The notes under the pieces: generated by a model
Databases searched by the model: none
What the model saw: only the letters and a program-made list of their open reading frames with translations
Told to the model about the DNA's origin: nothing
In this document: one piece after another, positions 49,191-64,000 of the stretch
Position numbering within the stretch: position 1 is the first letter of the stretch
Layout: every line of letters starts with the position of its first letter
Program-made: the position numbers and the translations under genes
From: Methanolobus sp.
GTDB taxonomy: Archaea; Halobacteriota; Methanosarcinia; Methanosarcinales; Methanosarcinaceae
DNA: 64,000 nt
Direction of reading: 5' to 3'
NCBI RefSeq assembly: GCF_016278365.1
Contig: NZ_JADQBZ010000006.1
Coordinates: 62,001-126,000, forward strand

Positions 49191-52100
49191 ATGAAGTGCC
49201 CCAATAAATTTATCTATGCCTCTATCATTTTTCTTGCCATCAGTCTATCCGCTTTAGCTTTGGATGTCGAGATGCTTACAACGGACATGCAGAGTAACTC
49301 CGGTGAACCCGTGGATGTCATTGTGAGAGTAACAAATAATTCAACTCCTATGAATAACACCCTCGTAAACTTCACAACTACATTTGGTATACTCAATTCA
49401 TCATCTGCGTACACCGACGTATACGGCATTGCGGCAATACAGCTAAATTCCAGTGTGTCTGGAGCCGCACAGGTCAATGCAAGCGCAGGCACTTCGTATA
49501 ATCTAACAAATATAACTTTTCTTCCCCTGGCCGCCAGTTCAATTCTGGTAGATGTCGATTATCCCGTAAATGTTGCGGGCAATATCACAAATATTACTTT
49601 TACCCCTGTGGATATTTTTGGCAATACCAATTCAAGTGAGCTGATATATCTGGAAATTAACATAAGCGACTATTCGGAAATTGTAACACTTTCAATAAGT
49701 CCCGGGAACATAACACACCTTGAAATCATTCCCGAAGGCTCAGCAGGTGTAAACTGGACCGCTCTGGAGATACTTGCCAATCCTGTAACCGGAAATGCTG
49801 TTCTGAGCCTGAACTCTACCATTGCAGGCAATATTAACATCACATCGACAACCGGTTCAGCTTCCAACTTTACGGAATTGGTGTTCATTCCAGGGGAACC
49901 CTCACGGATCGGAGCTGTATACAACGATGAATATACAGTGAACACGACCTCCAGTATGTATGTACGTCTTTATGATATCTATGACAATCCTACACCAAAT
50001 ATCAATCTCAATTTCAGTTTGACATCTCCTGAAAACACTGCCTACAACAGTCCTGTGGAATATAACTCTGCGGGACTTGCCTATTATAATGGGACCACGG
50101 ATCCCAGCGGGCAATTTGCCAATATTTTCAGGACCGATAAAAGAGCAGGTGCAAACATAATTAACATAGTTGTTGCGAATACTTCACTTCAGGGCAACAT
50201 TACTATAACTGGGATTGCAGACGAGATCGATAATTTGTATCTCTCACATAATCCCGGACTTGCTCTTTCCAATAACAAGGATTCCTATGTCCTCTCAGCC
50301 CGGCCGATAGATCAGTTCTTAAATCCAATATTGCCTCGCACAACCCCTATTAAAGAACTGGTCCGGTTCACAACAGCTAGTGGTTATCTTGTGCTGATAC
50401 CTTTAAACAACCAGGGGCAGGCAAATACTATAGTTGGTCCTACTCCTTATGTTGAGTCTCTCACAATAACAGCGACCTACAGGGATGCTTCTGGTTATAC
50501 TAATTTCACAAACAGCACCACTCTCTATTTTGTGGCTGGCTCTTTATATCTGCTGGACTTGTATTCGGTTCCAAATGCCATACTTGCACAGGGATTGAAT
50601 GGTAATCATGAAGCTACTGTCTCCCTTGTCGCACTGGACGAATGGGGCCATGCACTCCCTGGCATTTCTGTGGCTCTCAATAATACCAATACGACAGTTG
50701 GTACCCTGGCAGTCAGTGGTGTCAATGCTACGAATATTATTAATGTGACAACAGATGCCAATGGGAAGGTAAAAGCCTCCTTCTTAGGCAATGTTTCCGG
50801 AAATGCGACAATCCTGGCTACCAGTGGCAGCATCAACACCTCGATAAATATAAGCGTGAAGTCCGAGCCTTTCATGAGCGTGACACTGGATGTGAAACCA
50901 TCCAATGTAACATCCGGTGGTACTGTGAACGTAACAACGATCATCTCAATAGAAGGAGAACTCCCGATCATACGACCTGCAGCAAGTGCAATGCTGGTCC
51001 TTGACCGCTCAGGAAGTATGGACCCTGACTATTATGCGGGAACTCCTCTGGATGTCGTGCTTGTTATTGACAGGTCGGGAAGTATGAAATTCTTGGGCAC
51101 TTCCCCTGAACAACCAATGACAGACGCTAAAATAGCTGCAGGAGAATTCGTAGACAACCTTGCATCCAATGCACAGGCAGGAGTGGTATCATTCTCGACT
51201 TCCAGCAGGATGGACATAGGAATGACCCTTCTCCATTCCTATAACAACAAGACCTCAGTAAAAGGTGTCATCGATGTCTTAGTAGCTGATGGTTCAACTG
51301 CTATGGGTGATGCAATGGCAGATGCGAATAACATGCTTATAAATGGACGCCCGGAGTCAAAAAAAGTAATGATCGTCTTAACAGACGGTGTCTCTAATGC
51401 TGGCTCGGATCGTGAAGGTCAAGCAGCCGTTACAACCGCAAAGGCAAATGGAATCACTATTTATACAATCGGTCTGGGTGAAACAAGTTATATTGATGAG
51501 CCTGTTCTTCAGCGCATAGCTTTTGAGACTGAAGGAATTTATTATAATGCACCCACAAGTGCAGAACTACGCGAGGTGTACAATTCAATCGCACAGGAAA
51601 TAAGCGATTACGATGTACGCTTCGTGGAATATGGGACAGAAGGTTTTACTCCATATGACTATACCTTTCAGGGTTCGATAGACCCGCAGGAATCCGTTGG
51701 GATACAGGAATATGTGCTCAAATTCCAAGGGTATGATTTGGATACTGTCTTCAATGCTGGGAGCCAGTATGGTGGTTCGAGTGCAGGAGAATGCCTCATT
51801 CAAATAAATGGGGCAAACTTTACATTGATTCCTTCATCAAACACTCCAAGTGCCAATAATGTATGGGTGAATTATGAATATAATATTACTGCTCACCTAG
51901 CTTCAGGTTCTAACACAGTAACTTTCTATGATTATTATGCATATTTAGGTAATGGCGACTGGACTAGCCGGATTAGGAATGTAGAGCTATTCAGGAATGG
52001 TACTAGAATTGCATATCATCCCACAGATACTGATCTGAGTCGATTTGGTTATGAATGTAGCCTGAATCTAGTTAAGCCCTTTGAAGAAACACTCCTTATT

Positions 52101-55100
52101 AATGAGACGATTAATGACCTTAAAGTCCAACTTGATTGGGAAGACAGCGTTAATGACCTTTCTCTCCAATTAACAAGTCCATCTGGAATAGTTTATGGTT
52201 TAAGTAATGATACAACCGGATACTATTCAAACGGCGATACTTCCATATATATATGGATACAGCCATTGTCTTACATTTATCCGGATGATGATGCAGATAC
52301 TGTGGAAAAAGGCAACTGGACGGTAACTGTTGAAGGCACTGATCTAGGTGATTTTACCATTTCTACATACATAGATAAGATGAGCGCAGCCAAGTTATCA
52401 TCTCACGCATTCATTTCCAGTTTTGATGAAAGCCGCGGAGACAAGGCAGGACTTGCTCTTTACAGTATTGGTAATGTTTCACTTACCGACAGCCAGGCAA
52501 GTTATCTGCTTGACAATGGTAGCTGGGCTGGTTACTTCACTGTCCAGACAAACGGGATTTATTCTTTTGATATCTCATGGGATGACACCTCCGAAATGAA
52601 TGTTTCGCTTTATGAAGGCATAGATTTGCTGAATTCTTCAACTATTAACACAGGTGTTTGCCAGATAAGCTCTCCTTTGTATGTTGGAAAAACCTATCTT
52701 CTGGAAATAGCCAAGGGTCCTTATTCGGGTACTGATACTCATTTCACTGTTGATGTTTCAAGTTCTCCTCTGGATACCATTATGACCACTTACTACGATG
52801 GTAGTGATGAGAGTGGAAAAGGTACACCTCGTTTCAGGACATGGGAAGGTTCACAATGGTCCATGGAAAGTTATTCTAATTTCATAGATGGTGTACCGTA
52901 TTTTGTGCTTCTTGAGCCAAGTCCCGTAAGGGATGAGATTATAATGGTGACAGGTGATGATCAAAATGATGTCAATGCACAGATATGGGACGGAAACTCT
53001 TGGAGTTCAGTACAGGAGCTTAGCACTAAGCTGAGTTCAAGCGTAAGAAGGGGTTTTGACGTAAAGTATGAGCAAGAGTCAGGTGATGCTGTTGTAGTCT
53101 ATATGAACGTAAACAAGTATTCTAATGTGCCATTATATAGGGTCTGGAATAGCTCTTCTTGGGGTTCAGAGGCTGCAGTAGATTCTTCAAACACAGGTGC
53201 AGGTACTATCCAATGGATGAGACTTGAAGCAAAACCAAATTCAGATGAGATGGTTCTTGTGACCCTTGACAGTTCTAGAGATATACGTGCACAGGTATGG
53301 GATGGCGACTCATGGGGCAATGTTACTCAGATAACTAACAATGCCAGAACTGCAAATTACCAGTGCTTTGATGTAATTTACGAACAAGGTACAGGCAGAG
53401 CTATGGTGGTATGGGCTGATTCAAATAAAGTCCGATATCGTATCTGGAATGGTATTTCCTGGGAAAGTGGACAGGACCTCTATTCATTCTCCAATGATGT
53501 CTACTGGATAAAACTGGCAGCTGATCCGAATTCAGAAAGAGTTATATTAGGTTCTCAGGACGAAGCTTATGATGTTTATGTTGGTGTCTGGGATGGTTCT
53601 TCGTGGCCTTCTTCACAATTAGGAAGGATTGAGGATAACACATACCGCACTGATGTCAGATCATTTGATGTAGCATTTGAACAACAGACCGGTAAAGGAA
53701 TAGTAGTATGGGGTGATCGAAGTACCGTTCCAAAATATCGTACTTGGTCCGGTTCTTGGAGCAGCGAGTCATCAGCACTTGATCTGGGCAGCAGTGGTTA
53801 TACCAGGTGGGTACAGCTAACTCCTGATCCGATTTCAAATGAGGTATTCCTTATGACATCTGATGGCAATACTGATCTGAATATCCAGAAATGGTCTGGC
53901 TCTTCCTTTATTTCCACTGCGCAGGTTGAACCTTCTTCCACATGGAACTACGAGTGTTTCGACATTGTATTCTCTACACAGGAAGCGTCTGTTGAAAGTA
54001 CTCCTGTCTCCTGGAGTGGGTGGACTGCCGGCGTCACATCAACCCTTGAAAATGACTCCATTTCCCATCTGAGCAATGCGATAGATACAATCACTGCCGA
54101 CGGACTGACAGCTATAGATGAGGGATTGTACGTTGCCAATAATGAACTCTCCTCAGTGGATGGCAATTCCACGATTGTCATCATGACAGACGGCATTGAT
54201 AATGCAGGTTATCACTCCCTGCTGGAGGAAGCATACAGGGCAAAAGCCAACAACACCACGATCTATACAGTAGGTTTCGGTAACACCGAGTCTGAGGTTG
54301 ACTCTATACTTGCCGAAATTGCAAGTATCACCGGTGGTGAATACTATTTCGCTCCGAACTCAAGTGTCCTTAAGGAGATCTTCACGGGAATAGCAATGCA
54401 GATTACGAACTTCTCGGCAGGCGGACCGGAATTGAACCTACATGTTCCTTACAATTATGTATCTCCAATGGCCGTGGCGAAGGTCACCTATGTAACTGGA
54501 AGCAGCAATGCCACAACAGGTAATCTGACTCAGTTCGATATCCCTATACCTCCCGGAAGGAACAATGCCGAGCCTGCAATCACAACATCCGGTACCATGT
54601 CCATTTTTGAATGGAAGCTGCCGACACTGGGTCCTGGTGACAAGTGGGGTATATGGTATCAGATGAAAGTGGAAGGTGCGGGTTATGTGCCTCTGATACT
54701 GCCATCATCCACGATTACGTATACTGATTTGAGCGGTGAGAACATCACCATCTATATTCCCAGTGCGGGAGGCATGCCTGTCGGAGGAGGAGGTGGTTTA
54801 AGTCCCTTGTCGTATTCTCTGGGAGAATTGTTAGTAGTACCTGACCATTCCGTGCTGCAGATAGGCGAATCCACAAATATAACCTTAACAGTAAATGATA
54901 TTACCGGGAATGCCAGTTTTGCCTATGTGGTGCTTCACACAAGTCTTGGATCCTTCACCAATTATAATACTTCGTACGGTATGACTCCCATAAACGCTAC
55001 TGTCATTGGTTCAGACCATGTTAATTTCACGAGTCAGATAGCAGGTAAAGCCTATATCACTGCCTACGCGTATAATACAAACAATGTAAGTGATATGCTC

Positions 55101-55154
55101 AACGAGAGCGAATTGATATTAGTAAGGCCCAAGGGGATGATAACTATCAGTTAA
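49191..55154 (+). CDS. Giant secreted surface protein with interrupted vWA domain and propeller
   Basis: 1987 residues. Signal peptide 1-23 (cleavage after ALA). Residues 25-590 are tandem Ig/Big-1-like domains with many N-glycosylation sequons. A vWA MIDAS motif, LDRSGSM with D605, is followed only 22 residues later by a second one, IDRSGSM with D627, that starts a complete vWA (627-800; T703; TDGVSNAG). Next come a sugar-binding-like domain (about 815-950), a P-domain-like region (about 955-1070), a PPC-like domain (about 1085-1190), and about 1195-1605 a propeller of two alternating blade types. The C-terminal half of another vWA, without MIDAS start, follows (1605-1745; T1640; MTDGIDNAG), then a glycine hinge (GGGGGL) and an Ig-like end. 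No C-terminal helix is present. Probably an adhesin or S-layer-associated protein. Confidence 0.88.
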   Translation: MKCPNKFIYASIIFLAISLSALALDVEMLTTDMQSNSGEPVDVIVRVTNNSTPMNNTLVNFTTTFGILNSSSAYTDVYGIAAIQLNSSVSGAAQVNASAGTSYNLTNITFLPLAASSILVDVDYPVNVAGNITNITFTPVDIFGNTNSSELIYLEINISDYSEIVTLSISPGNITHLEIIPEGSAGVNWTALEILANPVTGNAVLSLNSTIAGNINITSTTGSASNFTELVFIPGEPSRIGAVYNDEYTVNTTSSMYVRLYDIYDNPTPNINLNFSLTSPENTAYNSPVEYNSAGLAYYNGTTDPSGQFANIFRTDKRAGANIINIVVANTSLQGNITITGIADEIDNLYLSHNPGLALSNNKDSYVLSARPIDQFLNPILPRTTPIKELVRFTTASGYLVLIPLNNQGQANTIVGPTPYVESLTITATYRDASGYTNFTNSTTLYFVAGSLYLLDLYSVPNAILAQGLNGNHEATVSLVALDEWGHALPGISVALNNTNTTVGTLAVSGVNATNIINVTTDANGKVKASFLGNVSGNATILATSGSINTSINISVKSEPFMSVTLDVKPSNVTSGGTVNVTTIISIEGELPIIRPAASAMLVLDRSGSMDPDYYAGTPLDVVLVIDRSGSMKFLGTSPEQPMTDAKIAAGEFVDNLASNAQAGVVSFSTSSRMDIGMTLLHSYNNKTSVKGVIDVLVADGSTAMGDAMADANNMLINGRPESKKVMIVLTDGVSNAGSDREGQAAVTTAKANGITIYTIGLGETSYIDEPVLQRIAFETEGIYYNAPTSAELREVYNSIAQEISDYDVRFVEYGTEGFTPYDYTFQGSIDPQESVGIQEYVLKFQGYDLDTVFNAGSQYGGSSAGECLIQINGANFTLIPSSNTPSANNVWVNYEYNITAHLASGSNTVTFYDYYAYLGNGDWTSRIRNVELFRNGTRIAYHPTDTDLSRFGYECSLNLVKPFEETLLINETINDLKVQLDWEDSVNDLSLQLTSPSGIVYGLSNDTTGYYSNGDTSIYIWIQPLSYIYPDDDADTVEKGNWTVTVEGTDLGDFTISTYIDKMSAAKLSSHAFISSFDESRGDKAGLALYSIGNVSLTDSQASYLLDNGSWAGYFTVQTNGIYSFDISWDDTSEMNVSLYEGIDLLNSSTINTGVCQISSPLYVGKTYLLEIAKGPYSGTDTHFTVDVSSSPLDTIMTTYYDGSDESGKGTPRFRTWEGSQWSMESYSNFIDGVPYFVLLEPSPVRDEIIMVTGDDQNDVNAQIWDGNSWSSVQELSTKLSSSVRRGFDVKYEQESGDAVVVYMNVNKYSNVPLYRVWNSSSWGSEAAVDSSNTGAGTIQWMRLEAKPNSDEMVLVTLDSSRDIRAQVWDGDSWGNVTQITNNARTANYQCFDVIYEQGTGRAMVVWADSNKVRYRIWNGISWESGQDLYSFSNDVYWIKLAADPNSERVILGSQDEAYDVYVGVWDGSSWPSSQLGRIEDNTYRTDVRSFDVAFEQQTGKGIVVWGDRSTVPKYRTWSGSWSSESSALDLGSSGYTRWVQLTPDPISNEVFLMTSDGNTDLNIQKWSGSSFISTAQVEPSSTWNYECFDIVFSTQEASVESTPVSWSGWTAGVTSTLENDSISHLSNAIDTITADGLTAIDEGLYVANNELSSVDGNSTIVIMTDGIDNAGYHSLLEEAYRAKANNTTIYTVGFGNTESEVDSILAEIASITGGEYYFAPNSSVLKEIFTGIAMQITNFSAGGPELNLHVPYNYVSPMAVAKVTYVTGSSNATTGNLTQFDIPIPPGRNNAEPAITTSGTMSIFEWKLPTLGPGDKWGIWYQMKVEGAGYVPLILPSSTITYTDLSGENITIYIPSAGGMPVGGGGGLSPLSYSLGELLVVPDHSVLQIGESTNITLTVNDITGNASFAYVVLHTSLGSFTNYNTSYGMTPINATVIGSDHVNFTSQIAGKAYITAYAYNTNNVSDMLNESELILVRPKGMITIS

Positions 55155-55434: not shown

Positions 55435-56313
55435 ATGGTAAAAAGAATCATAAGTGATGTGTTCAGGCACGTGCCTGTCAGAGTGCTGGCCCTTGCCATA
55501 GTGGCATTTGTGGCAATGAGTCTTCCGGCATCTGCATGTTATATTGGCGATCTTGTATGGAATGATCTCAATGGGAATGGTATCCAGGATGCTGGGGAAC
55601 CAGGTATTAAGGGTGTAGAGGTAAAACTTTACAAGTCAACTGGCGGGAGTTCCATCGCGACAACTACGACCAACTCTAATGGTTACTACAAATTCGCCGT
55701 TAATAACAATAAAGACTATAAGGTCAAGTTCATTCTGCCTTCAGGATATCTATTTTCCCCAATTGACCAGGGCACAGATGACAAGAAAGACAGTGATGCA
55801 GGCACAAATGGCTTGACTTCTGTTATCAAGATCAGGAATAGTAAAGATAACTGCACCATTGATGCAGGTATATACAAGCCAGCAAGTGTTGGTAACTTTG
55901 TATGGGAAGACAAGAACAACAATGGTATCCAGGATGTTGGTGAGCCTGCGATTGAAGAAGTTGAAGTCAGGCTCTACAAGTGTGATGGGGAATTTGTTGC
56001 AAACACAACAACAGATAGCATTGGATACTATATATTCACTGGACTTGCACCAGGCAGCTACTATATGGAATTTGTAAAGCCTACCGGATCGGTTTTTGCT
56101 CCACAGGGGCAGGGCAGCACAGCAATTGACAGTGATGCAGACGAATTCGGGAAAACAGATTGCTTTGCACTTATCTCAGGGCAGTACTATGATGACATAG
56201 ATGCAGGAATTTACTTCCCGCCCGAACAGGAGATCCCTGAGTTCCCGACAATCGCCCTGCCGGTTGCAGCGATCCTCGGTCTTGCATTCATAATGCAGCG
56301 CAAGAACGAATAA
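55435..56313 (+). CDS. SdrD-like B-domain surface protein with PEF-CTERM signal
   Basis: 292 residues. Signal peptide about 1-35. Two SdrD B-like repeats (about 37-148 and 152-262) share the opening G(D/N)xVWxDxNxNGIQDxGEP, a calcium-binding type loop, and a DAGIY end. The C-terminus IPEFPTIALPVAAILGLAF plus QRKNE is a classical PEF-CTERM sorting signal, which is processed by an archaeosortase (type C) and attached to the envelope. No archaeosortase is in the window. TATA-like ATTATGTACGTAATATGG context before ATG 55435. Cys at 36 and 119 could form a disulfide. Confidence 0.93.
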   Translation: MVKRIISDVFRHVPVRVLALAIVAFVAMSLPASACYIGDLVWNDLNGNGIQDAGEPGIKGVEVKLYKSTGGSSIATTTTNSNGYYKFAVNNNKDYKVKFILPSGYLFSPIDQGTDDKKDSDAGTNGLTSVIKIRNSKDNCTIDAGIYKPASVGNFVWEDKNNNGIQDVGEPAIEEVEVRLYKCDGEFVANTTTDSIGYYIFTGLAPGSYYMEFVKPTGSVFAPQGQGSTAIDSDADEFGKTDCFALISGQYYDDIDAGIYFPPEQEIPEFPTIALPVAAILGLAFIMQRKNE

Positions 56314-56380: not shown

Positions 56381-57121
56381 TCATTCCATCTTAACATCGA
56401 CGATATGTCTGCTGACAATTAGTCTTGTATCATTCTTAGTGGCTGTAACCATATCAAGTGTGCTGCCGGGGGAGATATCAAAGCCGGCATCTTCCAGATA
56501 ATTTTCCCACGCAGGAGCATGTGCGCTGTCTATTTGGACTGTTACGTTTGTAGGTCCTGATGGCATCTCCATTCTACTGGAATTGTGATTCATTATAACT
56601 GTTGTAATCCCCCTGCCTGAAAGCCATGCATTTCCGTTGATCGAGACTATGCCGATAGTTGTCACACTCTTATTATCTATGGTACTGGTGTATACAGGAG
56701 GCTTTGATACCATGATCATGGAAGTGGAGGAGTATTTCTTTATCACACTTCCCATTTCATAGCTTATGGATTTTTTACCTTTTGAGAACTGTATATCCCC
56801 CATGGGGTAAGTTCCGAGGTGAGTACCGTCATAACTGATACTTATGTTAGATGAATGGTCGTTCACTGAAATCTCGGAGCCGTGGAGTTTCATCTTTAGG
56901 GTCTTCACAGGTGCCTGGTCGAAGGACACCCTTTTCATGCTGCTCTGGAGAACAATAAAACTCTGCTCTGCACTTTCAAATACGTTTGCATCGATATTTG
57001 ACTGTAGCACCGGATAACCAATGGCATATATGGTACCCATCGACAAAGTCACAATCCCGAACAATATGATGTATCCCAGAGTCTCAGAGACTGCGGAGTT
57101 ATTCCTATCTAGTTGAGTCAT
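56381..57121 (-). CDS. Pilin-like protein, DUF7289 type (cluster 1)
   Basis: 246 residues. Short charged leader then AVSETLGYIILFGIVTLSMGT, an archaeal class III pilin-like hydrophobic helix, then a soluble beta-rich outer domain. Two conserved family points: the QSFIVLQSSMKRVSFDQAP segment and the later GSVIKKYSSTS..MVSKPPV region, also seen in the paralogues at 59867-61297 and 61309-62103. Last gene of the first operon, overlapping the upstream gene by 17 bases. Probably a minor pilin or pseudopilin-like surface component. Confidence 0.82.
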   Translation of the reverse strand: MTQLDRNNSAVSETLGYIILFGIVTLSMGTIYAIGYPVLQSNIDANVFESAEQSFIVLQSSMKRVSFDQAPVKTLKMKLHGSEISVNDHSSNISISYDGTHLGTYPMGDIQFSKGKKSISYEMGSVIKKYSSTSMIMVSKPPVYTSTIDNKSVTTIGIVSINGNAWLSGRGITTVIMNHNSSRMEMPSGPTNVTVQIDSAHAPAWENYLEDAGFDISPGSTLDMVTATKNDTRLIVSRHIVDVKME

Positions 57122-57560
57122 AGCTGATCACACGATGTGTGGAACTGCTTGATACCGTGCCGTTGATAGGCATTGTTGCAGCAATTCCTCCTATAGTCAC
57201 TCTTACTTTCTGACCTGATGAATAGGAACCCACTTCTATTATCTGGTCTTCCGGACCATCATCCAAATTGATATCCGCATTAATATAATACGTCTCCTGT
57301 CCTGCTTTATCCGGTATCCTGTATTCCATTTCCATCATTCCGTTGGCAGGAAGGATCAGGTACATGTCCGTAATCACAGTGCTCATCATGTTTCCGATGT
57401 CACTGAACTGGTCTTCGACAACGACAGAATTTGGGCGCTGAAGAAATATATCGTAGGAATTTACAGTGATCACCATGAAGAATCCGATACATATCAGTGT
57501 CAACAGGATATATTCTACGATGACTGAAACCCCTTCCTCATTTTTCAATAGCGGTCTCAT
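57105..57560 (-). CDS. Pilin-like protein, DUF7266 type (cluster 1)
   Basis: 151 residues. Starts with KNEEGVSVIVEYILLTLICIG, a pilin-like leader and helix, followed by a domain containing MEYRIPDKAGQETYYIN, which is shared with the paralogue at 62110-62583. Overlaps its neighbours on both sides (4 bases upstream, 17 downstream). Function inferred as envelope filament or secretion component. Confidence 0.8.
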   Translation of the reverse strand: MRPLLKNEEGVSVIVEYILLTLICIGFFMVITVNSYDIFLQRPNSVVVEDQFSDIGNMMSTVITDMYLILPANGMMEMEYRIPDKAGQETYYINADINLDDGPEDQIIEVGSYSSGQKVRVTIGGIAATMPINGTVSSSSTHRVISYDSTR

Positions 57561-58021
57561 TTCTCCACCTCTATGACTTCCGGGCTTGAAACATATCTGG
57601 TTCTGCCGTCATTATATTCGATATTTACCCAGATGATGTCTTTCCCGGACATGTTTGTTTCATTGGCAATCTGCATCGGCATCATTATTCTAGTATCGAT
57701 TGCCTGTCCGCGTATAGCGTAAAGTGCCTTCATTTGATCATTGCAGTTGATGAAAATATCCTCAAATATCACCGGCACAGTTTTGTTGTTTGTCTGGTTG
57801 AGTTCATAAGACATATCCAGGATCATCCTTGTATTCTCCCTGGTCTGCAATGTCAGCTCCCTTATGTCCTCTTTTGGTAATTCCAGCACTGCATTCGATG
57901 AGTAATAACCATTGATTACTGCCTGGTTCGCAAGCACTGCTATCGCCACCAGGATGAGGGATATGACCAATCCGGAAAGTACTATCCACTGACCTTTGTT
58001 ATCCTTTCTTAAACTCTCCAT
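57557..58021 (-). CDS. Pilin-like protein, DUF7261 type (cluster 1)
   Basis: 154 residues. KDNKGQWIVLSGLVISLILVAIAVLAN is a leader plus single membrane helix; the outer domain is short with sequons (NQTNNKT, NETNMS). It corresponds in position and N-terminal pattern (GQ/AQ, helix, then Asn/Ser/Tyr-rich segment) to the 287-residue protein at 62580-63443 but lacks the long central domain of that one. Overlaps the upstream gene by 13 bases. Confidence 0.78.
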   Translation of the reverse strand: MESLRKDNKGQWIVLSGLVISLILVAIAVLANQAVINGYYSSNAVLELPKEDIRELTLQTRENTRMILDMSYELNQTNNKTVPVIFEDIFINCNDQMKALYAIRGQAIDTRIMMPMQIANETNMSGKDIIWVNIEYNDGRTRYVSSPEVIEVEK

Positions 58022-58530
58022 GCTGTTAGTCTCACCTCCACGATCAACAACTCATCATCAGCAATGTTCCATTCTCCGCCAGAACTGGAAACCGTAGAAT
58101 TGGAGAGTGACACTAAACGTCTGGCTACAACAGCATTTTCTGTGGGTGCGCCGTTAACGATAACCTTCTTGTCTGTCAGTTGTGTGGTCGCATTAACATA
58201 TGCTATGTTGACATTGTAGAGTATATCAGGAAGAAGGTATGAAAGCTCATAATCAAGCATCTCAAGATTGTTTGAATCTAGGCTTGCTTCATTCTCATCC
58301 CAGCTCGCAATGCATTCAGTCAGATCGTTCCTGATCGTTGCCTCGGGTGCGCTGTCCAGTACTGTCAATGCATCGGATGCTATTTGTTTTAGCTGGACGT
58401 CCATCACTAGTTCATTCTGTGGTGTTATTATCATGGCACTTTGGGTAATGGTCAGTATCGTCAATGTCATCAGCAGTGCAGCAGCAAGACCTTCCAGAGT
58501 ATGCAGTTGTGCTTTATCGTTCATTTCCAC
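58009..58530 (-). CDS. Pilin-like protein, DUF7288 type (cluster 1)
   Basis: 173 residues. NDKAQLHTLEGLAAALLMTLTILTI is leader and helix; the C-terminus ends VRLTAWRV, matching the MTLWRM end of the partial protein at 63451-64000, and both carry a QL.QMA.DAL.VL-type helix after the membrane. Ten-base overlap with the upstream gene. Confidence 0.8.
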   Translation of the reverse strand: MEMNDKAQLHTLEGLAAALLMTLTILTITQSAMIITPQNELVMDVQLKQIASDALTVLDSAPEATIRNDLTECIASWDENEASLDSNNLEMLDYELSYLLPDILYNVNIAYVNATTQLTDKKVIVNGAPTENAVVARRLVSLSNSTVSSSGGEWNIADDELLIVEVRLTAWRV

Positions 58531-59504
58531 ACCATCACATTGAGGTAAGCAGGCTCATAGAAAGGCTCCTCTCTTGATGTATACTCCAGTGGTGCTCCTG
58601 GCATTGTGAACCAGATATCATTGAATGTCAGTTCTAACAGGTAAGTCTGATTTGCACTAAAAAGACTGGAGTTCAGATCCAAACGCAGCATGTCATTGTG
58701 CTCTAGTGAATTACTTAAGTTTATAGGTGAGTATATGCCGTTAATCCTTTTGTATGCATTGAAATCAGCAGATGGGACGAGTGCGGTTCCATTCAGCTCT
58801 ATGCTTTCAAGTTTAGGATTTGTTCCTGTTACGTTAAATTTGCTTAAAACTACAGTGACATTTTCGTTCTTCGGTCCGGCGACGCTCAATGAAGTCACGT
58901 TAGATAGGGCAGGATAGGGTGTAGTAAGTTCCTCTGCATCAAAGTAAGCGGCCCTTCCTGTTTCTATCAGGACGATGCGCACAATTTTAATCACATCCCT
59001 GTCTGCCGGGATCTCGCCCCCAAGTGTTATGGCAGTGTTGTCAAGAACAATTGGTATGTTAGATGAAGTGTCTACGAGGGATATGTTATAGCCATAATAT
59101 AGGAACTTGCCGTTTACGTTATCATACAACCCCATCTTTTGCTCAAAATTTGTCTTATTCGTCTTATATATATGCATCATCGCAATCGTTTTATTTTTTG
59201 AGATGAGGTTTGGGCTATTTGTCAGTTTTGAACTGCTGTCATCGTCCGCCGCAAGACCAATTCTTTTAACGTTAGCAGTATTGTGTTCCCAATCCGTATT
59301 GCTTGTAGTGGTGTTCCCCCACCACCCGGGATCTTCAGCAAGGACCGTAGCTGTACGATAAGCTGTATGGTCAAGGCTCCCCTCATTTGCTGAACTGGGA
59401 AGAAATAAACCTGGAATGAATTGTACTATGAACATAAGAGCAATAAGGAACAACGAAATCCCAAGAAGGAAATCCACGGCAATTTGCCCTCTCTCATCTA
59501 TCAT
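58521..59504 (-). CDS. Pilin-like protein, DUF7287 type (cluster 1, first gene)
   Basis: 327 residues. DERGQIAVDFLLGISLFLIALMFIVQ is leader and helix; then a motif AYRTATVLAEDPGWW common to this family and a long beta-rich domain. A TATA-like TAATATAAATATTA lies at 59526-59539, about 28 bases before the ATG, which lacks a ribosome-binding site, suggesting a leaderless transcript. First gene of a five-gene overlapping operon. Confidence 0.82.
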   Translation of the reverse strand: MIDERGQIAVDFLLGISLFLIALMFIVQFIPGLFLPSSANEGSLDHTAYRTATVLAEDPGWWGNTTTSNTDWEHNTANVKRIGLAADDDSSSKLTNSPNLISKNKTIAMMHIYKTNKTNFEQKMGLYDNVNGKFLYYGYNISLVDTSSNIPIVLDNTAITLGGEIPADRDVIKIVRIVLIETGRAAYFDAEELTTPYPALSNVTSLSVAGPKNENVTVVLSKFNVTGTNPKLESIELNGTALVPSADFNAYKRINGIYSPINLSNSLEHNDMLRLDLNSSLFSANQTYLLELTFNDIWFTMPGAPLEYTSREEPFYEPAYLNVMVWK

Positions 59505-61308: not shown

Positions 61309-62103
61309 CTACTCGATAGTTACACTCATTGGAGATACTGTCACAAGCACATCTATGCCGGGATTATAATCCCGGCTTGCAGATATAGTACTGTTTGCAG
61401 GATCTCTGTGTTTGATATCCATTCCCAGCGTTTCATTCAGGTATCTTTCCCAGCCTTCGTAATAATCGCTTTTAATGGTCATGTCAACCCTGGATACATT
61501 TTCGTATACTGAAACCGATATTTGCCCTCCCTGGGAAACAACACGGGTCAGCCCTGAACCGGAAATGCTTTTTGTGCCTGAAATGGTTATCATGGGAATA
61601 AGTAATACGTTGTCATGATACGCGAAATCCGGTTTTGAAATCGCTATGGAACTTCCTTGCGGGTACCTGACCCAGGTGCCTGTGTTCTCATAGGCTACGG
61701 TATTTTCACCATATTGATTCTCTATCGTCCTCATCTGTCTTTCAAGGGAAGGGGTATTATAACTCGAATTGGTGCTATTCCATACCTGCATGCTCAAATT
61801 CATGTAACTGGTTCCTGTAACTGAGATGCTGCTCCCGTACATTTTAAGCTCTACGGACTGAGAGGGTGCTTTTCCGAATGCCACTTTGTTAAGGTTGGGT
61901 TGCAGCACAGAGAAACTCTGCTCTATGTTCAGAAGATGTCCTCTCTCCTGCATGTTTTCAAGCATGGGATATCCTGCGACGCCTATTACTGCAAGCGACA
62001 GAACCATCACTCCAAGGGTGATACTGAAACCAAGTACTTCTGAAACAGCATCATCGGATGCAACAATGTTTTTTCGTGCCTTTTTCCTGCTGTCCATGCG
62101 CAC
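61309..62103 (-). CDS. Pilin-like protein, DUF7289 type (cluster 2, first copy)
   Basis: 264 residues. SDDAVSEVLGFSITLGVMVLS, then IEQSFSVLQPNLNKVAFGKAPSQS and TWVRYPQGSSIAISKPDF: same order of segments as the protein at 56381-57121. Basic leader KKARKN. Six bases after the upstream gene. Single membrane helix, outer beta domain. Confidence 0.82.
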   Translation of the reverse strand: MRMDSRKKARKNIVASDDAVSEVLGFSITLGVMVLSLAVIGVAGYPMLENMQERGHLLNIEQSFSVLQPNLNKVAFGKAPSQSVELKMYGSSISVTGTSYMNLSMQVWNSTNSSYNTPSLERQMRTIENQYGENTVAYENTGTWVRYPQGSSIAISKPDFAYHDNVLLIPMITISGTKSISGSGLTRVVSQGGQISVSVYENVSRVDMTIKSDYYEGWERYLNETLGMDIKHRDPANSTISASRDYNPGIDVLVTVSPMSVTIE

Positions 62104-62109
62104 TCACTC

Positions 62110-62583
62110 TCAGGATATATCAATTGTATCGGTGATCGGGTTGTAAACCATCAGGTATTCGCCTTTTGAGCTGTAAAGAATGGTTGGAGTAACATTGGTA
62201 TCTTCGGTGGAATAGGGTACTTTAACTGTTGTCTCATCTCTCTCCTCAGACATGATTATTATTTCATTTGTACTGCTTGAGAACTCGATGGAATATTCCT
62301 TACCTGCTATCTTGTCTGGCAGAAATAGCCTGTAACTGATCCTTTCAACACCGGAACCTGCATCTTTTGCCATACCAACCATCGTATCCATAGATGTTAT
62401 ACGGACCGCAATATCGCTTCCATGTATTTCGAACTCGTCGCGCATCACGGTCTGCTCGGCCTGTCCCATCAGTGAATAAAATGATGTCAGAGCAATTACC
62501 ATCACAAGAACTGTTATGGAGAAAGTAAGTATGAACCCAATTGAGATAGATACTGCATTCTCATCGCCTGCCAGATCTCTCAT
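62110..62583 (-). CDS. Pilin-like protein, DUF7266 type (cluster 2)
   Basis: 157 residues. GDENAVSISIGFILTFSITVLVMVI, then YRLFLPDKIAGKEYSIEF, matching the 57105-57560 protein in the same order. Overlaps the upstream gene by 4 bases. Minor envelope component by inference. Confidence 0.8.
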   Translation of the reverse strand: MRDLAGDENAVSISIGFILTFSITVLVMVIALTSFYSLMGQAEQTVMRDEFEIHGSDIAVRITSMDTMVGMAKDAGSGVERISYRLFLPDKIAGKEYSIEFSSSTNEIIIMSEERDETTVKVPYSTEDTNVTPTILYSSKGEYLMVYNPITDTIDIS

Positions 62584-63443
62584 GACATCCCTCCCGGAAG
62601 GGGAATCGGCACTGTCCTATTGATGCTCATCTGGCTGGAAGCCATCCTCAGGGTTGGGTTCGCAACTTTGTATCTTGCAATCATGAAGGGCTGACCGGAT
62701 GAAGTATTGCCGGATATTGTGTAAATTCCAATAGTAGTGCTTCCATTGTAGATATTTATTGAATAATCCTGGCCCGTTGTAGAGGCAGGAAAATTGAATG
62801 GAGTTATAACATTAACCCCGTTGATCTGGTTACCTGTTATGTTGACTTCTAGAGTTGTCCAAGTACCGTTATTGTATCTGGGTACTAGCGAACTGTCAAT
62901 AACAGTTATAGTTATATTCCCGCTTGAATTGTACATTCCGATTGACCATAGGCTACTTCCGCTATTATTGACGGCTTCGATTACAAGCGGATTGGATTCA
63001 TTTCCCATGGTGGATGTGTTTAGCGTAATAAAGAACGATTCAGTCATGTTTACGTTGCTCACAAGGGTCCAGTTGTCTTTCCCCCCGGCAAGCCCGTTGT
63101 GGGTGAAATAAGGTTCTGAGAAACCATGGTCCTGTAGGTGGAAAGTAAAACCTGCTGTTGCATAGTTCTGTGAGGCTTTCCTGGAGTAGGAGTCAATATA
63201 TTCTTCATAACGGGTGATGTTATCCCCACTCAGTATGGAGTACCTGTAAGCGTCCTGGTATGCTTCAGTGGTTGTCTGGATCGCGTTGGCAATATCGTAG
63301 CGGGAAGTATCAATGCTTGATTCCGATGCCATGTTGCTGGCATATATAACATTGCTTAGCATGACTGTAATCACAACTATGCCTACTCCTATGGCAAAAC
63401 CTGCTATCAATAACAACTGAGCGGAATCGTCTAATTTTCTCAT
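62580..63443 (-). CDS. Pilin-like protein, DUF7261 type with inserted domain (cluster 2)
   Basis: 287 residues. DDSAQLLLIAGFAIGVGIVVITVML is leader plus helix, then ESSIDTSRYDIANAIQTTTEA. Unlike its 154-residue counterpart at 57557-58021 it has a large extra Asn/Ser/Thr-rich beta domain (about 90-250) with ten or so sequons. Overlaps the next gene by 4 bases; 7 bases after the partial gene. Confidence 0.78.
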   Translation of the reverse strand: MRKLDDSAQLLLIAGFAIGVGIVVITVMLSNVIYASNMASESSIDTSRYDIANAIQTTTEAYQDAYRYSILSGDNITRYEEYIDSYSRKASQNYATAGFTFHLQDHGFSEPYFTHNGLAGGKDNWTLVSNVNMTESFFITLNTSTMGNESNPLVIEAVNNSGSSLWSIGMYNSSGNITITVIDSSLVPRYNNGTWTTLEVNITGNQINGVNVITPFNFPASTTGQDYSINIYNGSTTIGIYTISGNTSSGQPFMIARYKVANPTLRMASSQMSINRTVPIPLPGGMS

Positions 63444-63450
63444 GCGATCA

Positions 63451-64000
63451 CTACATTCTCCAGAGCGTCATCTTTACATTCACGATATTGTAGAAATCTG
63501 TCGGATCCGCGTCCGGGATTCCGCTGCGTGTCGCAAATTCAGTTGTGTTACCGACGTCGAAATTTGATAAATGCACTCTCTTTGATATCACTACAGCGTT
63601 ATTCGAAGGATCCCCGTTATAGATGTATCTTCGGGATATTGTGACGCCTTCTTCATCCACCCAGCTGAAATGCACATTATGAGCGATACCTCTTTTGACC
63701 GCAACGAATTCCAGTGTCTCTGCAAGTGAACTGGACCGAAGCTCATGAGTTGGTGTCCTGACTGTCTTGTAGACGGTGCCGTTCCAGACGTACTGCTCGC
63801 CGTTCCACTTCAGGATGTCCTTCTTCAGGGCCGAATCCTGCCCGTAGGGAGAATATGAAAGTGCATTGAGCATGTCCTGTCCCATTGCCTGGAGTTGGGC
63901 TTCTATGTGGGCATTAGCTGTGGAGGATGTGAGAGGGGTAAGGGAAGTTGCCTGTACAGTGAATATGATAATACCGACCATGATGAGCGATGCAATGATC
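63451..64000 (-). CDS. Pilin-like protein, DUF7288 type, 5' end cut by window edge (cluster 2)
   Basis: The frame is open through the right edge: codons before the ATG at 63981 read IIASLI, continuing a membrane helix (IIASLIMVGIIIFTVQATSL), so the true start and leader lie outside. Outer domain with QLQAMGQDMLNALSYSP and the end MTLWRM as in 58009-58530. 183 codons visible. Confidence 0.8.
   Translation of the reverse strand, partial: IIASLIMVGIIIFTVQATSLTPLTSSTANAHIEAQLQAMGQDMLNALSYSPYGQDSALKKDILKWNGEQYVWNGTVYKTVRTPTHELRSSSLAETLEFVAVKRGIAHNVHFSWVDEEGVTISRRYIYNGDPSNNAVVISKRVHLSNFDVGNTTEFATRSGIPDADPTDFYNIVNVKMTLWRM

Follow-up and report, generated by a model that had tools for sequence, protein, structure and literature searches.

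In the pilus adhesins RrgA, GBS104 and S. sanguinis PilB, the vWA domain carries inserted arms, and in RrgA this domain itself sits within non-contiguous Ig-like domains (PMC7893114, PMC8179133). The protein described here, a giant protein of methane-cycling archaea encoded in a Methanolobus-type genome, resembles these pilus proteins in having extra segments that flank a vWA MIDAS, but while their arms are small hairpins or sheets, whole domains totaling more than 900 residues are inserted here, one of them a second vWA. It also resembles the PilY1 pilus tip proteins in combining a vWA with a beta-propeller, in its type I signal peptide and in its tie to several pilin-like proteins (PMC7541494). 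As far as described, however, the vWA and the propeller domain of PilY1 are consecutive and not nested (PMC7541494), and the archaeal propeller resembles PLL lectins. Since no PilY1 domain was matched in the 1987-aa protein (nine Pfam families matched at E up to 1), we do not consider it a member of the PilY1 group; by analogy, the PilY1/minor-pilin tip complex and the pilus vWA adhesins would be its closest working models (PMC7541494, PMC8179133, PMC7893114).

A vWA-type domain placed in another extracellular domain is also found in integrin alpha chains with alphaI, where alphaI sits in a propeller (PMC12422189). In the archaeal protein, by contrast, the host of the vWA is another vWA, and the propeller belongs to the inserted modules. 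Domain nesting of the A1-B-A2 type and at multiple levels has been documented at large scale, and the inserts in that survey were consistently smaller than their hosts (PMC13114784), whereas the combined inserts of the present protein are more than four times the size of the host domain. Our search of the literature returned no published case of a nested vWA pair.

Results

Architecture of the protein

The nested-vWA gene and its pilin-like neighbors lie in the window, that is, the whole stretch of 64,000 nucleotides that was analyzed, and comprise the following features.

49191..55154, + strand: whole gene, encoding a signal peptide, an Ig-like stalk, the nested-vWA head and a C-terminal Ig-like region
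49263..50960, + strand: Ig-like stalk, aa 25-590 (Pfam Big_1 in three stretches; weak intimin matches)
50976..51029, + strand: proposed piece 1 of the outer vWA, aa 596-613, beta1 and MIDAS loop D605/S607/S609 (conservation; AF2 strand 599-605)
51045..51608, + strand: complete inner vWA, aa 619-806, first module of gap 1 (Pfam VWA 621-797; MIDAS D627/S629/S631/T703/D732)
51627..52358, + strand: P-domain-like module, aa 813-1056, second module of gap 1 (weak sub-threshold P_proprotein match; alignment)
51705..52073, + strand: galactose-binding-like beta module, aa 839-961, inside the P-domain-like module (alignment; putative fold)
52362..52484, + strand: proposed piece 2 of the outer vWA, aa 1058-1098, alpha1 and beta2 (stitched-profile window; AF2 helix 1063-1075, strand 1085-1099)
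52485..52790, + strand: PPC-like beta module, aa 1099-1200, first module of gap 2 (AF2 strands only; alignment; putative family)
52803..53981, + strand: eight-repeat beta-propeller, aa 1205-1597, second module of gap 2 (W-x-G repeats; Foldseek)
54000..54425, + strand: proposed piece 3 of the outer vWA, aa 1604-1745, beta3 to the last helix, with T1640 and D1667 (Pfam VWA_3; conservation; AF2)
54438..55151, + strand: C-terminal Ig-like region, aa 1750-1987 (strands in the AF2 model of the homologue)
56381..59504, - strand: pilin-like cassette of five genes, DUF7289-DUF7266-DUF7261-DUF7288-DUF7287, converging on the vWA gene (Pfam)

Hydropathy analysis identified the N-terminal signal peptide as the sole strongly hydrophobic segment of the 1987-aa protein and gave no transmembrane anchor in the C-terminal Ig-like region. 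Pfam detected two vWA stretches. The first (621-797) is a complete and contiguous VWA match (83.1 bits, profile positions 1-172) with a complete MIDAS, so that D627, T703 and the TDG motif holding D732 are all in place, as the initial annotation had read them. The second (1617-1720) is partial and misses the start of the profile, in agreement with the proposal of a C-terminal vWA part (T1640, and MTDG with D1667) that has no MIDAS start of its own. The lone MIDAS strand noted upstream was also recovered: its motif LVLDRSGSM (D605) precedes by 22 residues the LVIDRSGSM motif (D627) of the inner vWA.

We propose, with a probability of about 0.8, that this protein is a secreted modular adhesin whose head is one vWA interrupted twice, with the three pieces folding together. 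Residues 596-613, 1058-1098 and 1604-1745 would then form one vWA with a complete metal site, while gap 1 would display the second, complete vWA and the P-domain-like module, and gap 2 the PPC-like module and the lectin-like propeller. With an outer vWA in three pieces, there would be two separate insertion sites, one after the MIDAS loop and the other between beta2 and beta3. The initial idea that an existing vWA received an insertion is supported, but the host appears to be in three pieces instead of two, and the propeller is not in the gap that holds the inner vWA. Both interrupted sites, the MIDAS loop and the beta2-beta3 hairpin, are loops of the host fold, and for this reason the outer vWA is probably a scaffold, which would carry exchangeable binding modules on the Ig-like stalk.

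Contents of the two gaps

Gap 1 (about 614-1057) contains the inner vWA and the P-domain-like module, and alignments showed that in certain species the latter contains a galactose-binding-like module and in others an extra module of ~210 aa; the galactose-binding-like module is absent from L063, L069, L080, L083 and L160. Gap 2 (about 1099-1603) contains the PPC-like module and, in most homologues, also the eight-repeat propeller. The names of the small beta modules (P-domain-, PPC- and galactose-binding-like) come from weak matches and are putative. Eight W-x-G repeats (at 1218, 1266, 1319, 1370, 1419, 1467, 1519 and 1568) fit the eight blades that had been counted in the propeller, whose closest solved structures in Foldseek searches were the lectin propellers of PLL/PHL and BP39L (TM of ~0.7 when normalized to target length) and of AAL. 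These lectin propellers are seven- and six-bladed. The Methanococcoides alaskense homologue lacks the propeller and has an intact outer vWA, the L068 homologue has other modules, and L080, L081 and L083 have a different repeat region. The frame is constant across homologues, while the gap contents vary.

Further inserts were seen at the MIDAS loop of other vWA domains. The inner vWA of L083 and L082 is itself split after its own MIDAS loop (DVSGSMDPDYY) by a P-domain-like module, adding a further level of nesting. Three DPANN proteins (L089, L094 and L108) have a beta module of ~90 residues between the MIDAS loop and alpha1, the same position as in the Methanosarcinales protein, but they carry this one insert in a single vWA and no second vWA. 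Match coordinates had suggested a double vWA in L089, which the reading of its sequence replaced by one vWA with an insert. Since the inner vWA of L083 and the DPANN proteins have their inserts at the same MIDAS-loop site, this site appears to be repeatedly insertion-tolerant.

Pilin-like neighbors and a possible role of the protein

Three families of the neighboring cassette (DUF7289, DUF7288 and DUF7287) were matched above the Pfam cut-off, and DUF7266 and DUF7261 below it; we found no literature on the DUF728x families. The cassette adjoins the vWA gene in Methanolobus, in a Methanosarcinaceae MAG (L057), in M. alaskense and in two other Methanosarcinales-type genomes. Within the genus, a short-type DUF7288 gene (~75-91 bits, vs 132-166 for the other type) was present in 15/15 species with the nested-vWA gene and in 0/12 without it, a co-occurrence that is not an independent-sample test, since the split between types was drawn after the scores had been seen and since the species are related. 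In G051, a complete cassette is located ~0.7 Mb from the vWA gene, which argues against mere hitch-hiking. Gene neighborhood and domain analogy suggest that the protein may work together with the five pilin-like proteins as an adhesin at the tip or at the surface, and we consider such a pilus- or surface-adhesin role plausible. Alternatively, the nested head could be real and the protein could be a stand-alone S-layer-associated or secreted protein that is unrelated to pili, as may be suspected from the lack of a pilus/secretion ATPase on the window's contig and from the many order-level loci where no cassette lies next to the vWA gene; considering the exact co-occurrence in the genus and the cassette that G051 retains even though it is unlinked, we find this alternative somewhat doubtful.

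Other genes of these types were also observed. Another cassette with pilin-like genes from these families (window 61309-63999, - strand) lies in tandem with the first and runs on into L170, and positions 55435-56313 (+ strand) of the window encode an SdrD_B protein with two repeats, whose C-terminal tail resembles a PEF-CTERM sorting signal. A DUF7288 pilin-like protein at L185:507-5045 (- strand; G053:C26) is interrupted by over 1200 residues that include FG-GAP (integrin-type) propeller repeats and further modules, and a match split in the same way was found in further genomes of that family. Two and three clustered nested-vWA genes are present in G008:C1 and G016:C14, respectively, and each of these genomes has two short-type DUF7288 genes nearby.

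A probable third piece of the outer vWA

In the divergent homologue L083, a helix-strand motif (SAAQIASHEF...DRVGLATYS) located downstream of the inner vWA resembles alpha1-beta2 of a vWA. Using a vWA profile built from 44 domains from outside the family, we slid a window of 36 residues along the insert and tried every position as the middle piece joining the outer N- and C-pieces. In a first run, the inner vWA's own alpha1-beta2 scored top, which served as a positive control. When the inner vWA region was excluded, the window starting at q1054-1061 was the best one in 12/12 homologues, with a gain of ~35-49 bits over no middle piece and with the next separate window ~12-22 bits below. For the window's protein, the score rose from 90.0 to 133.9 bits with the middle piece, compared to 119.1 bits for the next separate window. 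The Pfam VWA profile gave a modest gain on the stitched outer domain, from 44.0 with two pieces to 54.7 with three, compared to 45.5 with the one decoy middle that was used, and the three-piece stitch covers positions 4-172 of its 174. Using hhalign, the score of the outer vWA rose from 207 to 250 upon addition of the middle piece (100% over 177 columns). These results also account for the shortfall of about 26 residues that the initial annotation had calculated for the outer vWA: the residues do not seem to be lost, as alpha1-beta2 would sit at 1058-1098.

AlphaFold2 models were then compared for residues 561-1760 of the window's protein (mean pLDDT 83, pTM 0.59) and for the M. alaskense homologue without propeller (pLDDT 74, pTM 0.61), using an alignment of 34 rows. 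In the first model, the predicted outer elements are a strand (599-605), a helix (1063-1075), two strands (1085-1099 and 1606-1617), two helices (1624-1632 and 1642-1653) and a strand (1660-1666), an order (beta1, alpha1, beta2, beta3, alpha2, alpha3, beta4) that is that of the inner domain, element by element. The second model has the same order, with a strand (63-69), a helix (716-729), two strands (738-752 and 853-864) and then two helices and a strand. On the basis of these models, the three pieces may close into one outer vWA in three dimensions.

Residues K1063, S1071, F1074, D1084, G1087, Y1091 and S1092 are constant in at least 40 homologues (with one V at K1063), and the mean identity of the middle piece (0.63) is close to that of the outer C-piece (0.64) and higher than that of its neighbors (0.55 and 0.44). 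If the outer vWA had two pieces only, 1058-1098 would be a part of the P-domain-like or of the PPC-like module, and its position directly between these two beta modules makes either a possible owner; we judge this to be improbable when a conserved helix and a long strand stand isolated among beta modules in the AlphaFold2 models, when the profile selects this segment in each of the 12 homologues and when seven of its residues are near-invariant. Altogether, the three-piece form of the outer vWA is likely and the vWA nesting itself is very likely.

Conservation and proposed origin of the nested pair

Homologues were drawn from whole genomes and from genome contigs, the latter belonging to Methanolobus, Methanococcoides, Methanomethylovorans, a Methanoperedenaceae archaeon (L068), ANME-2c (L073) and other Methanosarcinales. 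The best named match was from Methanolobus psychrotolerans (73% identity). The outer MIDAS residues D605, S/T607, S609, T1640 and D1667 are invariant in 39-40 homologues from five archaeal families: those of piece 1 are the same in 39/39 homologues, except for S607T in two, and T1640 and D1667 are kept in 40/40. The inner MIDAS (D627/S629/S631/T703/D732) is likewise invariant in 39-40 homologues. In each of the 38 distinct junctions listed, the two MIDAS motifs are spaced by exactly 22 residues, and the linker is DPDYYAGTP or a close variant. With such a spacing and with invariant outer MIDAS residues, the arrangement is not due to chance, and a dead fragment is unlikely, since it would not be so preserved. 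Metal binding by the outer vWA may be expected from these residues. The outer pieces also have a higher mean identity (0.84, 0.63 and 0.64) than the flanking modules (0.44-0.55). Judged from these alignments, the nested arrangement is maintained throughout an archaeal order.

The outer and the inner vWA sets each form one clade (support 100/100), and a sister relation of the inner and outer domains, and thus a common origin, was not rejected (AU p 0.43). In class-wide and phylum-wide samples, no group other than the Methanosarcinales showed the double MIDAS motif, and junction matches outside the order span mostly the inner half. Viral contigs gave unrelated single vWA domains only, as did plasmids. 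Neither the class-wide search with the stitched outer vWA nor the search of 393 genomes of the phylum with the junction returned a homologue without any insert or with a contiguous outer vWA. The state before insertion is therefore inferred, and insertion of a vWA into a vWA would be the simplest reading of the origin of the pair. The other origin that had been put forward, a partial tandem duplication leaving two independent vWAs with the second one truncated and D605 as a non-functional leftover, could draw on the near-identity of two MIDAS strands that lie 22 residues apart and on the common origin that was not rejected, but it is very improbable considering that both MIDAS sets are invariant, that the outer pieces are a clade of their own and better conserved than their flanks, that the beta1, alpha1 and beta2 elements "missing" from the C-terminal part are found upstream and conserved, and that a degenerate D605 strand with an intact C-terminal part was seen in no homologue.

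Discussion

One further reading, which we regard as unlikely, is a relay within the molecule between the two stacked MIDAS sites. The inner vWA, with the conserved acidic linkers D611-P-D613 and D806-Y-D808 as its tethers, would then act as an internal ligand or as a force-coupled switch for the outer one. If true, such a relay would be like the alphaI-betaI coupling of integrins, but inside one archaeal chain.

Since standard profile annotation misses the first strand and the middle segment of the outer vWA, similar cases may be hidden elsewhere. A vWA lodged in a host of related fold that is interrupted at two sites and still retains its metal site order-wide would be a striking natural case of domain insertion. 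The variation of the gap contents makes the folding and the ligand-coupling of both vWAs directly testable, and the interchangeable modules found in these gaps show how the scaffold of an adhesin can stay constant while its binding modules are exchanged.
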